Shown here piece after piece: positions 56,077-63,639 of a stretch of DNA of 64,000 nt. The notes under the pieces are model-generated. The model searched no databases. It saw only the letters and a list, made by a program, of their open reading frames with translations, and was not told the origin of the DNA. Source of the stretch: Candidatus Syntrophocurvum alkaliphilum (GTDB taxonomy: Bacteria; Bacillota; Syntrophomonadia; Syntrophomonadales; Syntrophomonadaceae); contig NZ_CP046457.1 of the NCBI RefSeq assembly GCF_009734445.1, forward strand, positions 1,296,001-1,360,000, written 5' to 3'. The position numbers and the translations under genes are program-made. How positions within the stretch are numbered: position 1 is the first letter of the stretch; every line of letters begins with the position of its first letter.

Positions 56077-56084
56077 AATAAAAA

Positions 56085-56115
56085 TGAGTCAAAAGGAACC
56101 GTCCCTTTTGACTCA
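56085..56115. repeat. GGGACGGTTCC palindromic repeat acting as likely bidirectional terminator
   Basis: TGAGTCAAAAGG pairs perfectly with CCTTTTGACTCA around AACCGTC. On the minus strand it is followed by TTTTTATTTT. It lies between the converging ends of the gene at 55780 and the binding-protein gene at 56132, where no other terminator is present. Confidence 0.85.
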
Positions 56116-56131
56116 CTGTTTTTAATTCTGA

Positions 56132-57085
56132 TTATCTTTCATTTATATGATCTGCAAGATCGCTTATTGATTCAATTCCTAATGCATCAGCATCAGCTTG
56201 GCGCATCATTATTGTATAAGTGTTGTTAAATGGAGCATAGTCTAACCATACTAAATCATTTTTCTCTAAGTCTTCTTGTTTAACTGCTTCATAACACTCT
56301 TGAGAATCTGTAATTGCTTCTTCGTGCTCAAGGTAGGTTAACCATGCAGTTCCAGTGTATTCCCAATAAATATCTACATCACCATTTAGTAATGCTTCAC
56401 GTACTACTACGCTTCCACTTAAGTTTGTATTATCTTCAACATCAAAACCCGCATCTTCTAATACTGCTATAGTAATTGCTCCAAGTAATAGCTGCTCAGT
56501 AAATTCTTTAGAACCAACTGAAATTTCACCTGCATTTTCAGCCTGTTCTCCGGTTAGGATTCCTTCACTATTTAACCAATCTACAGCAACCTGTGTTACA
56601 TCTTTACCATCTACATCTACTGAAGCATTTAGTTCAAGCATGGTATCTGTGTCTAAAGCATCACTTACTGGTTGCATTAATTCTTCTAACTCAGGATATT
56701 GTTCAATTACGTCTGTACGTACTACTGGCGCAGGATTGTAAACCGGGAAGAAGTTTTTATCATCTACAAGGTTTACTAAATCAAAGGCTGCTATACGTCC
56801 ATCAGTTGAGAATCCCATAGCTGCTGCTACCTGGTGCTCTCTTAAGGCACCATATGTAATACCTAAGTCCATAACTTCAACATCATCAAATTCAAAACCA
56901 TATACTTGTACTAGCTCAGGAAGTCCATCTGGTCTTACTGAAAATTCATGGTCCGTAGCAAATACCCAGTCATCAATTTCACCTGGTGCACCAGCTTGAC
57001 CAGCACAGCCAACTAATAGTAGTGCAAAAACACTAATGATAGCTACTAAAGTTGTCATCTTTTTGGATTGTTTTAAAGATAGCAT
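56132..57085 (-). CDS. Glycine betaine/osmolyte-binding lipoprotein, circularly permuted (copy 1)
   Basis: This 317-residue lipoprotein (lipobox LLLVGC, Cys27) is the ligand-binding part of an OpuC/ProX-type osmolyte transporter, held outside the membrane. The lobes are in swapped order. Residues about 38-177 (FSVRPDGLPELVQVYGFEF, FSTDGRIAAFDLVNLVDDKNFFPVYNPAPVVR) correspond to the usual C-terminal half. Residues about 187-317 (ISVGSKEFTEQLLLGA, DIYWEYTGTAWLTYL, YAPFNNTYTIMMRQADA, ISDLA) correspond to the usual N-terminal half. A short linker, LTGEQAENAGE, joins them. The start at 57085 is set by GGAGGGG. It is the last gene of its four-gene operon. Confidence 0.9.
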   Translation of the reverse strand: MLSLKQSKKMTTLVAIISVFALLLVGCAGQAGAPGEIDDWVFATDHEFSVRPDGLPELVQVYGFEFDDVEVMDLGITYGALREHQVAAAMGFSTDGRIAAFDLVNLVDDKNFFPVYNPAPVVRTDVIEQYPELEELMQPVSDALDTDTMLELNASVDVDGKDVTQVAVDWLNSEGILTGEQAENAGEISVGSKEFTEQLLLGAITIAVLEDAGFDVEDNTNLSGSVVVREALLNGDVDIYWEYTGTAWLTYLEHEEAITDSQECYEAVKQEDLEKNDLVWLDYAPFNNTYTIMMRQADADALGIESISDLADHINER

Positions 57086-57107
57086 ATAAATCCCCTCCAT
57101 TTTTAAA

Positions 57108-57839
57108 TTAAGTAATCTTTATACCCCTTTGTTCTAGAATTGCTAATAAATGATCGAAAGTTAGTGCTAATAATGCACTTAATATACATCCTACTAACAG
57201 TAATGATAATCGTTGTACCTGAATCCCAGTTACTATTAAGTGTCCTAGTCCTCCAGCGCCTATGAATGTAGCCAAGGTTGCGGTTCCAACATTTATTACT
57301 ACAGCGTTACGAATACCTGCCATTATTACAGGAAATGCTAATGGCATTTCTATTTGGTATAATATCCTATAGTTTGGCATTCCCATACCTTTAGCTGCTT
57401 CAATTACACCTGGTGGTACACTTTTTATTCCAGCATATGTGTTTCTTAAAATTGGTAGTAATGAATAACACCATAGAGCAAAAACTGCTGTATAAAATCC
57501 TAGGCCAAATATTGTGAAAAATAATGCTATGATTGCTAAACTCGGTACTGTTTGAGCTACATTAACTGTATTCTCAATAAATGGGCCTATTGCTCCTACT
57601 TTTTCCCTGCTTATTATTATTCCTAGAGGAATAGCTGTTAGGATAGCTGCTATGGAAGATACTAATACCATGGTTATGTGTTCCTGAGTCAATCGCAATA
57701 TATAGTCATAACTCAACACCCTAGCTGCCATAGCACCTCCGGGATTGTTTACAAAGTAAATTGTTATTCCTATTCCTAAACCAATAAATAATATTACAGG
57801 AATAAATTTTAACCATAAGTTATTACTATGCTGCATCAT
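57108..57839 (-). CDS. Osmolyte ABC transporter permease (copy 1, promoter-distal)
   Basis: This 243-residue membrane protein has five or six helices and the permease coupling motif EAAKGMGMPNYRILYQIEMPLAFPVIMAGIRNAVVINVGTATLATFIGAGGLG, typical of OpuBB/OpuCB/OsmW-type subunits for glycine betaine, choline or carnitine. Its start overlaps the end of the ATPase gene by 14 bases. It is nearly identical in DNA to the copy at 61059-61790. Confidence 0.93.
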   Translation of the reverse strand: MMQHSNNLWLKFIPVILFIGLGIGITIYFVNNPGGAMAARVLSYDYILRLTQEHITMVLVSSIAAILTAIPLGIIISREKVGAIGPFIENTVNVAQTVPSLAIIALFFTIFGLGFYTAVFALWCYSLLPILRNTYAGIKSVPPGVIEAAKGMGMPNYRILYQIEMPLAFPVIMAGIRNAVVINVGTATLATFIGAGGLGHLIVTGIQVQRLSLLLVGCILSALLALTFDHLLAILEQRGIKIT

Positions 57840-58938
57840 CTTTCATCAGCTCCAATATATATGCTATGGTTAGTACTCCTTTAGGTTCTTGGTTGTCGTT
57901 TAATACTACAGCATATTTTTCTCCTGTATTTAACATTGCAGATAGTGCATCTCCTAATGTTGCTTCATCTTGAACTAAGCTACTGCATGGTTTTATTAAG
58001 CTTTCTAAGGCTTTATTTTCCTTGTTGTTTAGTATGTGCTTAGTTTCTAAGATTCCACAAAATCTTAAGTTTTCATCAGTTACCGGTAAAGCTTTTGCTT
58101 TGCTATCTAGTAGTTGTTTGGATGTTATTTCTGATATGGTGTTTAGGTTTATGCTTGGTAATTTTGTATTTAGTACATCTTTTACTTTGATTAAGTTTAA
58201 TCTTTTGATTGAGCGATTGCTTCCAATTAATGATTCTACAAAGCTATCTGCTGGAGAACTTAATAAGTTGTTGGGTTCATCATACTGTATAAGGTTGCCT
58301 TCGCGCATTACCGCAATTTTATCTCCCATTTTTATTGCCTCATCTATATCATGAGTTACAAATATTATGGTTTTGTTTATCTCTTTTTGTAGTCTTATAA
58401 ACTCATTTTGTAAGTGGGTTCTTGTTATTGGATCAACTGCTCCAAATGGTTCATCCATTAATAATATAGGTGGATCAGCTGCTAAGGCTCTTGCTACTCC
58501 CACTCGTTGCCTTTGACCACCACTTAGTGCATCTGGTTTCCTGTTTCTATAAATTTCAGGATCTAATCCAACTAAATTTAATAGTTCATCTATCCTTGAA
58601 TTTATTTTTGATTGCGACCACTTTTTCTCTTTTGGTACTGTTGCAATGTTTTCTGCTATTGTCATATGTGGAAATAAGCCTATTTCTTGTATTACATAAC
58701 CTATGTTTTGGCGCAGTTCTATTGGGTTTAGATTGGTTGTATCAGAATCATTTATTTTTATTATTCCTGATGTTGGTTTTACTAAGCGATTTATCATCTT
58801 CATCGTGGTTGTTTTACCACAACCTGATGGACCTACAAATACACATGTTTCTCCTTCGTTTATTTGCATATTTAAATTATTAACTGCTGGTACTTCTGAA
58901 CCCGGAAAAACTTTATGCAGATTCTCTAGTTTTATCAA
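57826..58938 (-). CDS. Osmolyte ABC transporter ATP-binding subunit with CBS domains (copy 1)
   Basis: The 370-residue ATPase has Walker A GPSGCGKTTTMKMI (about residues 37-50), signature ALSGGQRQRVGVARALA, and Walker B ILLMDEPFGAVDPITRTHLQNEF, followed by the switch TIIFVTHDIDEA. A C-terminal tandem CBS region (about residues 245-370, including LPVTDENLRFCGILETKHIL and DALSAMLNTGEKYAVVLNDNQEPKGVLTIAYIL) is the usual ionic-strength or c-di-AMP sensing module of OpuA/OpuC ATPases. It is identical in protein sequence to copy 2. Confidence 0.95.
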   Translation of the reverse strand: MIKLENLHKVFPGSEVPAVNNLNMQINEGETCVFVGPSGCGKTTTMKMINRLVKPTSGIIKINDSDTTNLNPIELRQNIGYVIQEIGLFPHMTIAENIATVPKEKKWSQSKINSRIDELLNLVGLDPEIYRNRKPDALSGGQRQRVGVARALAADPPILLMDEPFGAVDPITRTHLQNEFIRLQKEINKTIIFVTHDIDEAIKMGDKIAVMREGNLIQYDEPNNLLSSPADSFVESLIGSNRSIKRLNLIKVKDVLNTKLPSINLNTISEITSKQLLDSKAKALPVTDENLRFCGILETKHILNNKENKALESLIKPCSSLVQDEATLGDALSAMLNTGEKYAVVLNDNQEPKGVLTIAYILELMKDDAA

Positions 58939-58957
58939 AGCACTACACCTCCTTTTT

Positions 58958-59578
58958 TTAGACTCTAGTGCGATGTTCTGCCCACTTTAATAGTCGGTCT
59001 GCTACTATTGCTACAATTGAAACAAAAATTGCTCCTACTAGTACTGAGTTCATATTCCACTGTGAGATTCCTCGGAATATGAATTCTCCTAATCCACCTG
59101 CTCCTACAAAGGATGCTATGGCTCCTATTCCTATTATCATTACTACTGATGTTCTAATTCCTGCCATTATAATAGGCCATGCAAGTGGTAGTTTGATTTT
59201 GCGCAATATATTAGTTTCATTCATTCCCATACCTTGTGCAGCTTGTATTACAGCAGGATCTATCTCCTCTATACCTGTATATGTGTTACGTACTATTGGT
59301 AATAAAGAGTATAGAACCAATGCTATTACACCTGTTTTAAAACCTATGCCAAATAGGGGTATTAACAGGCCAAATACTGCTAAGCTTGGTATGGTCATTA
59401 TTACTTGGCATATGTAAAGTACACCTCTTGCCAAGACTTGGTAATAGCTAATTAGGACACCTAATCCTACTCCTATTAGCACTGCAAAACCTACAGATAC
59501 TCCGACTAATACAATATGCTCTGCTGTTAATCTGATTACATTGTCTAGATTGTTAATAAAGTAATACCATAAATCCAT
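58958..59578 (-). CDS. Osmolyte ABC transporter permease (copy 1, promoter-proximal)
   Basis: This 206-residue permease is the first gene of the operon and pairs with the second permease to form the channel. It carries IQAAQGMGMNETNILRKIKLPLAWPIIMAGIRTSVVMIIGIGAIASFVGAGGLGEFIFRG, the coupling segment of the family, and five helices. The gene is preceded by a long leader that holds a riboswitch-like structure. Ribosome binding site sequence is weak (GGTGAT). Confidence 0.93.
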   Translation of the reverse strand: MDLWYYFINNLDNVIRLTAEHIVLVGVSVGFAVLIGVGLGVLISYYQVLARGVLYICQVIMTIPSLAVFGLLIPLFGIGFKTGVIALVLYSLLPIVRNTYTGIEEIDPAVIQAAQGMGMNETNILRKIKLPLAWPIIMAGIRTSVVMIIGIGAIASFVGAGGLGEFIFRGISQWNMNSVLVGAIFVSIVAIVADRLLKWAEHRTRV

Positions 59579-59696
59579 ATAATCACCATTTTTGTGTGAA
59601 GCGGGTAAGAAAATAAAGAAAGAAAGGCATAGAGCGTATGAACCTAGACCTATTGTTTAGTCTAGACCTTAAAGTATGTATCACATTCTTTCTCAC

Positions 59697-60012: not shown

Positions 60013-60032
60013 TAGTTTTATATATTGTTAAG

Positions 60033-60062
60033 TGAGTCAATAGGAACCGTCCCATTTGACTC
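60033..60062. repeat. GGGACGGTTCC palindromic repeat, slightly diverged
   Basis: TGAGTCAATAGGAACCGTCC followed by CATTTGACTC. Two compensating changes keep the stem nearly intact. It is placed between the operon 2 stop and its terminator. Confidence 0.8.
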
Positions 60063-60070
60063 GATTTTGA

Positions 60071-61036
60071 TTATTGTCTTTGATTAATAAGTTCAGCAAG
60101 ATCGCTTATTGATTCAATTCCTAATGCATCAGCATCAGCTTGGCGCATCATTATTGTATAAGTGTTGTTAAATGGAGCATAGTCTAACCATACTAAATCA
60201 TTTTTCTCTAAGTCTTCTTGTTTAACTGCTTCATAACACTCTACAGGATCGGTAATTGCTTCTTCGTGCTCAAGATAGGTTAGCCATGCAGTTCCTGTGT
60301 ATTCCCAATAAATATCTACATCACCATTTAGTAAGGATTCACGGACAACTACACTTCCACTTAAGTTAGTGTTATCTTCAACATCAAAGCCAGCATCTTC
60401 TAATACTGCTATAGTAATTGCTCCAAGTAATAGCTGCTCAGTAAATTCTTTAGAACCAACTGAAATTTCGCCTGCATTTTCAACTTGTTCGCCAGTTAAA
60501 ATTCCTTCACTATTTAACCAGTCTACAGCAACCTGTGTTACATCTTTATCATCTACATCAACTGCTCTATTTAGTTCAATCATGGTATCTGTGTCTAAAG
60601 CCTCACTTACTGGTTGCATTAATTCTTCTAACTCAGGATATTGTTCAATTACGTCTGTACGTACTACTGGTGCAGGATTGTAAACCGGGAAGAAGTTTTT
60701 ATCATCTACTAGGTTTACTAAATCAAAAGCTGCTATACGTCCATCTGTTCCAAACCCCATTGCTGCAGAGACTCTGTTTTCCTGTAAGGCACCATATGTA
60801 ATGCCTAAATCCATAACCTCAACATTATCAAACTCAAAGTCATATACTTGTACTAGCTCAGGAAGTCCATCTGGTCTTACTGAGAATTCATGGTTCGTAG
60901 CAAATGTCCATTCATCAATTTCACCTGGTTCACCTGGTGCACCAGCTTGACCAGCACAGCCAACTAATAGTAGTGCAAAAACACTAATGATAGCTACTAA
61001 AGTTGTCATCTTTTTGGATTGTTTTAAAGATAGCAT
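60071..61036 (-). CDS. Glycine betaine/osmolyte-binding lipoprotein, circularly permuted (copy 2)
   Basis: This 321-residue paralogue of the protein at 56132-57085 has the same lipoprotein signal and the same swapped lobe order. Compared with copy 1 it has about 25 substitutions and a 4-residue insertion after the lipid anchor (a GEPGE repeat). Differences cluster in the first lobe (for example GALREHQVAAAMGFST against GALQENRVSAAMGFGT), and the C-terminus ends LAELINQRQ instead of LADHINER. The changes could shift ligand affinity or choice. The start at 61036 is set by GGAGGGG. Last gene of operon 2. Confidence 0.9.
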   Translation of the reverse strand: MLSLKQSKKMTTLVAIISVFALLLVGCAGQAGAPGEPGEIDEWTFATNHEFSVRPDGLPELVQVYDFEFDNVEVMDLGITYGALQENRVSAAMGFGTDGRIAAFDLVNLVDDKNFFPVYNPAPVVRTDVIEQYPELEELMQPVSEALDTDTMIELNRAVDVDDKDVTQVAVDWLNSEGILTGEQVENAGEISVGSKEFTEQLLLGAITIAVLEDAGFDVEDNTNLSGSVVVRESLLNGDVDIYWEYTGTAWLTYLEHEEAITDPVECYEAVKQEDLEKNDLVWLDYAPFNNTYTIMMRQADADALGIESISDLAELINQRQ

Positions 61037-61058
61037 ATAAATCCCCTCCATTTAAAAA

Positions 61059-61790
61059 TTAAGTAATCTTTATACCCCTTTGTTCTAAAATTGCTAATAA
61101 ATGATCGAAAGTTAGTGCTAATAATGCACTTAATATACATCCTACTAACAGTAATGATAATCGTTGTACCTGAATCCCAGTTACTATTAAGTGTCCTAGT
61201 CCTCCAGCGCCTATGAATGTAGCCAAGGTTGCGGTTCCAACATTTATTACTACAGCGTTACGAATACCTGCCATTATTACAGGAAATGCTAATGGCATTT
61301 CTATTTGGTATAATATCCTATAGTTTGGCATTCCCATACCTTTAGCTGCTTCAATTACACCTGGTGGTACACTTTTTATTCCAGCATATGTGTTTCTTAA
61401 AATTGGTAGTAATGAATAACACCATAGAGCAAAAACTGCTGTATAAAATCCTAGGCCAAATATTGTGAAAAATAATGCTATGATTGCTAAACTCGGTACT
61501 GTTTGAGCTACATTAACTGTATTCTCAATAAATGGGCCTATTGCTCCTACTTTTTCCCTGCTTATTATTATTCCTAGAGGAATAGCTGTTAGGATAGCTG
61601 CTATGGAAGATACTAATACCATGGTTATGTGTTCCTGAGTCAATCGCAATATATAGTCATAACTCAACACCCTAGCTGCCATAGCACCTCCGGGATTGTT
61701 TACAAAGTAAATTGTTATTCCTATTCCTAAACCAATAAATAATATTACAGGAATAAATTTTAACCATAAGTTATTACTATGCTGCATCAT
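61059..61790 (-). CDS. Osmolyte ABC transporter permease (copy 2, promoter-distal)
   Basis: The protein sequence is identical to that at 57108-57839 (243 residues, same permease motif). The DNA differs at very few positions. The start overlaps the ATPase gene by 14 bases exactly as in operon 1. Confidence 0.93.
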   Translation of the reverse strand: MMQHSNNLWLKFIPVILFIGLGIGITIYFVNNPGGAMAARVLSYDYILRLTQEHITMVLVSSIAAILTAIPLGIIISREKVGAIGPFIENTVNVAQTVPSLAIIALFFTIFGLGFYTAVFALWCYSLLPILRNTYAGIKSVPPGVIEAAKGMGMPNYRILYQIEMPLAFPVIMAGIRNAVVINVGTATLATFIGAGGLGHLIVTGIQVQRLSLLLVGCILSALLALTFDHLLAILEQRGIKIT

Positions 61791-62889
61791 CTTTCATCAG
61801 CTCCAATATATATGCTATGGTTAGTACTCCTTTAGGTTCTTGGTTGTCGTTTAATACTACAGCATATTTTTCTCCTGTATTTAACATTGCAGATAGTGCA
61901 TCTCCTAATGTTGCTTCATCTTGAACTAAGCTACTGCATGGTTTTATTAAGCTTTCTAAGGCTTTATTTTCCTTGTTGTTTAGTATGTGCTTAGTTTCTA
62001 AGATTCCACAAAATCTTAAGTTTTCATCAGTTACCGGTAAAGCTTTTGCTTTGCTATCTAGTAGTTGTTTGGATGTTATTTCTGATATGGTGTTTAGGTT
62101 TATGCTTGGTAATTTTGTATTTAGTACATCTTTTACTTTGATTAAGTTTAATCTTTTGATTGAGCGATTGCTTCCAATTAATGATTCTACAAAGCTATCT
62201 GCTGGAGAACTTAATAAGTTGTTGGGTTCATCATACTGTATAAGGTTGCCTTCGCGCATTACCGCAATTTTATCTCCCATTTTTATTGCCTCATCTATAT
62301 CATGAGTTACAAATATTATGGTTTTGTTTATCTCTTTTTGTAGTCTTATAAACTCATTTTGTAAGTGGGTTCTTGTTATTGGATCAACTGCTCCAAATGG
62401 TTCATCCATTAATAATATAGGTGGATCAGCTGCTAAGGCTCTTGCTACTCCCACTCGTTGCCTTTGACCACCACTTAGTGCATCTGGTTTCCTGTTTCTA
62501 TAAATTTCAGGATCTAATCCAACTAAATTTAATAGTTCATCTATCCTTGAATTTATTTTTGATTGCGACCACTTTTTCTCTTTTGGTACTGTTGCAATGT
62601 TTTCTGCTATTGTCATATGTGGAAATAAGCCTATTTCTTGTATTACATAACCTATGTTTTGGCGCAGTTCTATTGGGTTTAGATTGGTTGTATCAGAATC
62701 ATTTATTTTTATTATTCCTGATGTTGGTTTTACTAAGCGATTTATCATCTTCATCGTGGTTGTTTTACCACAACCTGATGGACCTACAAATACACATGTT
62801 TCTCCTTCGTTTATTTGCATATTTAAATTATTAACTGCTGGTACTTCTGAACCCGGAAAAACTTTATGCAGATTCTCTAGTTTTATCAA
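61777..62889 (-). CDS. Osmolyte ABC transporter ATP-binding subunit with CBS domains (copy 2)
   Basis: This 370-residue protein is identical in sequence to that at 57826-58938, with the same Walker A, LSGGQ signature, Walker B and C-terminal CBS pair. Because the two ATPases and permeases are interchangeable, the binding proteins could in principle share either membrane complex. Confidence 0.95.
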   Translation of the reverse strand: MIKLENLHKVFPGSEVPAVNNLNMQINEGETCVFVGPSGCGKTTTMKMINRLVKPTSGIIKINDSDTTNLNPIELRQNIGYVIQEIGLFPHMTIAENIATVPKEKKWSQSKINSRIDELLNLVGLDPEIYRNRKPDALSGGQRQRVGVARALAADPPILLMDEPFGAVDPITRTHLQNEFIRLQKEINKTIIFVTHDIDEAIKMGDKIAVMREGNLIQYDEPNNLLSSPADSFVESLIGSNRSIKRLNLIKVKDVLNTKLPSINLNTISEITSKQLLDSKAKALPVTDENLRFCGILETKHILNNKENKALESLIKPCSSLVQDEATLGDALSAMLNTGEKYAVVLNDNQEPKGVLTIAYILELMKDDAA

Positions 62890-62908
62890 AGCACTACACC
62901 TCCTTTTT

Positions 62909-63529
62909 TTAGACTCTAGTGCGATGTTCTGCCCACTTTAATAGTCGGTCTGCTACTATTGCTACAATTGAAACAAAAATTGCTCCTACTAGTACTGAGT
63001 TCATATTCCACTGTGAGATTCCTCGGAATATGAATTCTCCTAATCCACCTGCTCCTACAAAGGATGCTATGGCTCCTATTCCTATTATCATTACTACTGA
63101 TGTTCTAATTCCTGCCATTATAATAGGCCATGCAAGTGGTAGTTTGATTTTGCGCAATATATTAGTTTCATTCATTCCCATACCTTGTGCAGCTTGTATT
63201 ACAGCAGGATCTATCTCCTCTATACCTGTATATGTGTTACGTACTATTGGTAATAAAGAGTATAGAACCAATGCTATTACACCTGTTTTAAAACCTATGC
63301 CAAATAGGGGTATTAACAGGCCAAATACTGCTAAGCTTGGTATGGTCATTATTACTTGGCATATGTAAAGTACACCTCTTGCCAAGACTTGGTAATAGCT
63401 AATTAGGACACCTAATCCTACTCCTATTAGCACTGCAAAACCTACAGATACTCCGACTAATACAATATGCTCTGCTGTTAATCTGATTACATTGTCTAGA
63501 TTGTTAATAAAGTAATACCATAAATCCAT
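62909..63529 (-). CDS. Osmolyte ABC transporter permease (copy 2, promoter-proximal)
   Basis: This 206-residue protein is identical to that at 58958-59578. The open frame extends 17 codons further upstream here (to 63580) because the leader has diverged. The homologous ATG at 63529 is taken as start since the corresponding upstream frame in operon 1 is closed. First gene of operon 2. Confidence 0.93.
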   Translation of the reverse strand: MDLWYYFINNLDNVIRLTAEHIVLVGVSVGFAVLIGVGLGVLISYYQVLARGVLYICQVIMTIPSLAVFGLLIPLFGIGFKTGVIALVLYSLLPIVRNTYTGIEEIDPAVIQAAQGMGMNETNILRKIKLPLAWPIIMAGIRTSVVMIIGIGAIASFVGAGGLGEFIFRGISQWNMNSVLVGAIFVSIVAIVADRLLKWAEHRTRV

Positions 63530-63639
63530 ATAATCACCATTTATACAGGAAACGGGTAAAAAAAGAAAAAAGGCATGCAATAAATTCAGTCTAGATTATA
63601 TTTTAAAAATCTAAACCTAGAGTATGTACATTCTTCACC

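Follow-up and report, generated by a model that had tools for sequence, protein, structure and literature searches.

Circularly permuted OpuC/OsmF-type osmolyte-binding lipoproteins in Bacillota, with repeated changes of half order at one connector

Both osmolyte-binding lipoproteins encoded in the window, the whole 64,000-nucleotide stretch of Candidatus Syntrophocurvum alkaliphilum DNA that was analyzed, belong to the OpuC/OsmF type and carry their C-terminal half first. Among OpuC-type proteins, this swap arose about seven times or more, at one point. A previous sequence-only reading of this DNA had proposed the circular permutation; its repetition, always at one place, was not part of that reading. 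We consider it probable (about 0.82) that these proteins are permuted but functional receptors of betaine-type OpuC/OsmF importers, generated by a recurrent, duplication-derived swap at a permissive connector, with the anchor on lobe 2.

Tandem operons in the window

On the minus strand of the window, two tandem four-gene operons were found, each in the order permease A, ATPase, permease B, and binding protein, with the following features.

56132..57085 (-), swapped-order osmolyte-binding lipoprotein, copy A; longest ORF 56132-57100, ATG at 57085 backed by a ribosome site
57005..57085 (-), copy A signal peptide with lipobox LLVGC; its cysteine is residue 32 of the longest ORF
56555..56962 (-), copy A C-half, first in the chain; PF04069 profile 114-256
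56525..56554 (-), copy A linker TGEQAENAGE, which connects the former C- and N-termini
56141..56524 (-), copy A N-half, second in the chain, followed by the tail ER and the stop; PF04069 profile 2-114
57108..57839 (-), copy A OpuC-type permease B
57826..58938 (-), copy A OpuC-type ATPase
58958..59578 (-), copy A OpuC-type permease A
60071..61036 (-), swapped-order osmolyte-binding lipoprotein, copy B; protein 93% identical to copy A; longest ORF 60071-61051
60497..60907 (-), copy B C-half
60467..60496 (-), copy B linker TGEQVENAGE
60083..60466 (-), copy B N-half
61059..61790 (-), copy B permease B; one DNA difference from copy A
61777..62889 (-), copy B ATPase; no DNA difference from the copy A gene
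62909..63529 (-), copy B permease A; likewise no DNA difference

A GGAGGGG ribosome site lies among the opening codons of the longer ORFs; it favors starts at the ATGs of 57085 and 61036 and so supports the gene boundaries drawn previously. The whole operon is tandemly duplicated (window positions 56082-59630 and 60030-63576). The DNA of the permease and ATPase genes is nearly identical between the copies, but the binding-protein genes differ at 7% of their bases (35 silent and 22 replacement codons), suggesting that the latter were exchanged or were spared from conversion. The swapped gene is accompanied by genes for an OpuC-type ATPase and two permeases and, in the window's clade, sits at the usual binding-protein position of a four-gene OpuC operon. 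No relic half was found adjoining the window genes, and no collinear OpuC-type binding protein was recognized in this genome.

Tandem binding-protein genes and tandem operons are present in these genomes, and the swapped proteins might on that account be taken for broken, non-functional by-products or assembly artifacts of tandem genes. This is hardly credible: a complete one-contig genome holds two copies, their signal peptide, lipobox, and ligand residues are intact, the codon differences between them are mostly silent, and swapped proteins occur in many genera. The judgment that the order is not a sequencing error stands, given the two copies and the eight or so further genomes with proteins of the window protein's own clade.

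Order of the halves and ligand residues

The PF04069 (OpuAC) profile matched the copy A protein with 207.6 bits in total (curated cut-off, 21.2), covering both halves in two stretches. Residues 44-177 matched profile positions 114-256, and positions 2-114 matched later in the same ORF, the reverse of the standard N-half to C-half order of the family. Among solved structures, the best match was E. coli OsmF (4wep; E = 3.5e-48), again as two exchanged stretches, and Archaeoglobus ProX (AfProX; 1sw1) and OpuCC/OpuBC likewise matched as two exchanged halves, with no end-to-end collinear alignment. A sequence search with the window protein did not bring up B. subtilis OpuAC (2b4l), so a close same-order kinship with the permuted OpuA-type proteins was not found. 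The NCBIfam OsmF model NF049931 also matched in two stretches with 212.9 bits, below its equivalog cut-off of 400; the collinear relative L029 scored 196.6 bits, below 400 as well. Collinear profile models split or under-score permuted proteins, and their scores should be read with this caution.

We take the ligand residues of AfProX to be K13, Y63, T66, Y111, R149, Y190, and Y214. Their counterparts in the window protein are K198, Y248, T251, Y295, R56, F97, and Y121, respectively; all are kept except for the change Y190F, and phenylalanine occupies this position in all 11 sampled proteins nearest the window protein. Judging from sequence and gene context, the role of the protein is most likely the capture of glycine betaine or a similar osmolyte, which it would hand over to the heterodimeric permease.

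Predicted fold

An AlphaFold2 model of the mature window protein, built with 33 swapped relatives, had a pLDDT of 95.3 and a pTM of 0.91. An earlier model from five swapped sequences was poor (pLDDT 58.9) and was set aside. In structure comparisons, the predicted fold gave a full-chain, high-Z match only to B. subtilis OpuAC (Z 17.7-18.8 over 242-246 residues, 14-15% identity); the next-best match had a Z of 9.8. Sequence relatives of normal order, at 33-38% identity, superposed on the model one half at a time, whereas the permuted B. subtilis OpuAC superposed end to end. Thus, each half is homologous to the exchanged half of collinear proteins within the same predicted fold. Sequence, predicted fold, and a comparison against 77-79 collinear relatives all support the proposed circular permutation.

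Breakpoint, hinge, and lipid anchor

All 37 swapped OpuC-type proteins break in one and the same connector, which leads from the ISDLA helix to the FATDHEF strand a short way into lobe 2; in a collinear example it reads EGVEAPEPGEWV. In the lineages closest to the collinear examples, the swapped tails correspond to the left part of the connector (EGVPAP, SGVPAP, and EGTPVP), and the starts after the lipobox correspond to its right part (EGWV, GGGWV, and SDGWV). Both ends of the parental connector survive in L077, L015, L103, and L104, for example as the tail EGVPAP and the start EGWV.

The hinge residues of L. lactis OpuAC are Lys404 and Ser508 (PMC2861598), and the break falls at 423/426 in the alignment to 7ahc. 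The cut would therefore lie about 20 residues past the hinge, inside lobe 2. This corrects one detail of the sequence-only reading, according to which the chain stops exactly where it would cross to the second lobe: the chain appears to have crossed already and to break about 20 residues later. With the new N-terminus in lobe 2, the lipid anchor would have moved from lobe 1 to lobe 2, in line with the earlier suggestion that it is attached to the other lobe. A lipobox matching the strict pattern was found in 35 of the 37 swapped proteins, the remaining two having a signal peptide that ends in Gly-Cys, and in 54 of 78 collinear proteins (Fisher p = 0.002); as the proteins compared are related by descent, this excess is only a hint.

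In type II binding proteins, the old N- and C-termini both belong to lobe 1 and can easily be joined, and the connector, being exposed, offers a site at which the chain can be opened. A plausible course of events would begin with duplication of the gene, followed by truncation through a new start and a new stop arising inside the same connector. The 10-residue linker would then join the original termini in lobe 1, the new termini would be at the surface, in the connector that links the first helix of lobe 2 to its first strand, and the lipid anchor would hang from lobe 2. OpuC-type binding proteins in Bacillota would have undergone this event, or its reverse, repeatedly, and OpuA-type proteins would have done so independently; a connector that is permissive to cutting and the short distance between the old termini would account for this.

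Repeated changes of order

For phylogenetic analysis, the halves of 92 proteins were put into one register. On the resulting tree, the swapped proteins required at least 8 order changes (8-9 in the bootstrap), 7 of which were forced by well-supported branches, and a single swapped clade was rejected (dlnL 677; AU p = 7.6e-56). The halves agreed when analyzed separately: the N-halves alone gave 10 changes and the C-halves alone gave 8, with a single clade rejected at p = 1.1e-6 and p = 1.2e-37, respectively. Protein L119 is 79-86% identical to the collinear L131/L132 in both halves and at most 67% identical to any other swapped protein, and the swapped L078 groups with collinear spirochete proteins. 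Further separate swapped groups are the L113 group, the L015/L077 pair, L103/L104, and the window's clade; in addition, there is a mostly orphan swapped clade (L086, L106-L112, L116-L118, L121, L122, and L143). Intermediates (tandem fused proteins or proteins with more than two halves) and genes for separate halves were sought in the survey, and none were found.

One case is a switch in place. The swapped L104 operon (L166, G498) and the collinear L029 operon share 86% DNA identity from permease A through the signal peptide. Past the signal peptide, the halves are exchanged and are 81% and 79% identical; the downstream flanks are 88% identical, and the neighboring proteins are 92-96% identical. 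L104 looks like a mosaic, with its N-half nearest the collinear L029, its C-half nearest the swapped L103, and its linker and tail in common with L103. It may thus have arisen by recombination with a swapped donor instead of a fresh permutation, or L029 may have reverted to collinear order.

The mosaic appearance of L104, together with the identical permease A and ATPase genes and the 7% divergence of the binding-protein genes in the window operons, could be explained by a single ancient permutation: the swapped gene scaffold would have been preserved while gene conversion from collinear paralogues subsequently replaced its halves, making the recurrence illusory. We regard this as quite improbable. 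In L119, L078, the L113 group, and L015/L077, each of the two halves places independently with collinear groups, which would demand two conversions in each case; in L104, the signal peptide would need to have been converted too; and linkers vary between groups in length and sequence.

The direction of change, gain or reversion, is read solely from the collinear outgroups. If the swapped order were ancestral in part of the family, some collinear genes would be reversions and the mechanism would work both ways. In the clade of L079, L113, L119, and L125-L133, a gain and a loss together take no more steps than two gains, and L029 is a candidate reversion; however, the outgroups (Desulfobacterota proteins, AfProX, OsmF, and OpuCC) are all collinear, and we consider this history rather unlikely, albeit the least so of the alternatives. 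A bolder version, in which the halves toggle back and forth at one fixed connector, possibly adaptively, with the anchor shifted to tune docking on the heterodimeric permease, is doubtful; if true, a lobe-to-lobe shift of the anchor would be a means of tuning how a tethered receptor docks on its permease.

A related pair was found among the OpuA-type proteins of the same genome. A collinear protein (G000:C1 431718-432608; L063 5719-6609) is encoded directly upstream of a swapped copy (432923-433846; L063 6924-7847), with transporter genes upstream of the collinear copy. The two proteins share 75% and 68% identity in their halves, and the DNA encoding their signal peptides is homologous, while swapped OpuA-type relatives in the class are 55-60% identical. 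The tree places the two neighbors as sisters (96/83), and a single clade comprising the swapped OpuA-type proteins was rejected at p = 0.0026, with the caveat of gene conversion. The pair is what duplication followed by permutation, with both copies kept, would look like. The swapped copy aligned with 2b4l in one end-to-end stretch and with L. lactis OpuAC in two, from which it follows that B. subtilis OpuAC is itself swapped.

Recurrent permutation, our preferred reading, would bear on a wider question, since a natural permutation is usually regarded as a one-time event of the distant past, whereas here one small receptor family contains many order changes at the same site. Some order changes separate genes that are 80-90% identical, and one occurred in place in an otherwise matching operon; these provide matched natural pairs. 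These are suited to tests of how permutation affects folding, ligand affinity, and docking, and of whether tethering favors permutation.

Distribution among genomes

A search for the same order recovered 37 distinct swapped OpuC-type proteins, all in Bacillota and spread over many genera, versus 77-79 collinear ones. A scan of species genomes yielded 50 loci, including three further swapped and 46 collinear proteins. Carriers of swapped OpuC-type proteins made up at least 2 of 63 genomes in the window's class, at least 8 of 398 genomes sampled in its phylum (its own genome counted), and at least 19 of 71 genomes in one order; these counts are lower bounds, as at most five candidates were scored per genome in the phylum searches, and many of the carriers are metagenome assemblies.

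Several other arrangements were seen in the survey. In a divergent swapped clade (L168, L169, L170, L173, L175, L176, and L097), no permease or ATPase was recognized nearby; L170 and L173 share neighbors that, by eye, resemble a PAP2-like phosphatase, a rubrerythrin-like protein, and a Trk-like protein. Several ligand residues are changed in this permease-less clade, which may serve sensing rather than transport. The ORF from base 3 of L150 (642 aa) appears by eye to combine a Ser/Thr protein kinase domain, a membrane helix, and a collinear OpuC-type binding domain, and its product is a possible osmolyte receptor kinase. In L062 (2-1264; Oligoflexia), a single chain seems by eye to carry a binding domain followed by a permease, whereas in the usual fusion the permease comes before the binding domain. 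L149 (G467:C130) and L101 (G001:C4) contain collinear binding-protein genes in tandem, and duplicates of this kind could give rise to a permutation.

Comparison with known systems

DNA methyltransferases and saposin/swaposin are the classic cases of permutation by duplication (reviewed in PMC3320104). They are unrelated to the window protein, and intermediates are documented for the methyltransferases, whereas none were found for the OpuC type. TpMglB-2 of Treponema pallidum is a tethered ABC binding protein of permuted topology that still binds its ligand, and its authors suggest a possible link to anchoring (PMC4990184). Unlike the window protein, it has a type I sugar-binding fold, and repeated separate origins among close relatives do not figure in the parts of that report considered here. 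The repeated permutation of OpuC-type proteins may be simply tolerated, or may be favored in tethered receptors as suggested for TpMglB-2.

OsmF/YehZ (4WEP), Archaeoglobus ProX (1SW1), and OpuCC/OpuBC (3PPQ and 6EYG) resemble the window protein in subfamily, ligand residues, and kind of operon, and their halves are about 32-38% identical to its own. They differ in being collinear and match it solely as two exchanged stretches. For the OpuC/OsmF type, no description of a permutation was found in the open-license literature searched.

For OpuA-type proteins, permutation at this place is already known: a circular-permutation relation among glycine-betaine-binding proteins has been reported (PMC2395249), and the OpuA-type precedent named in the sequence-only reading is correct, namely B. 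subtilis OpuAC (PDB 2B4L). B. subtilis OpuAC (2B4L/2B4M) shares with the window protein the swapped order, the break in the same topological connector, and the full-length fold (Z 18.8). In contrast, it belongs, with its site, to the OpuA-type subfamily and is only about 15% identical to the window protein, which is of the OpuC/OsmF type and was permuted separately.
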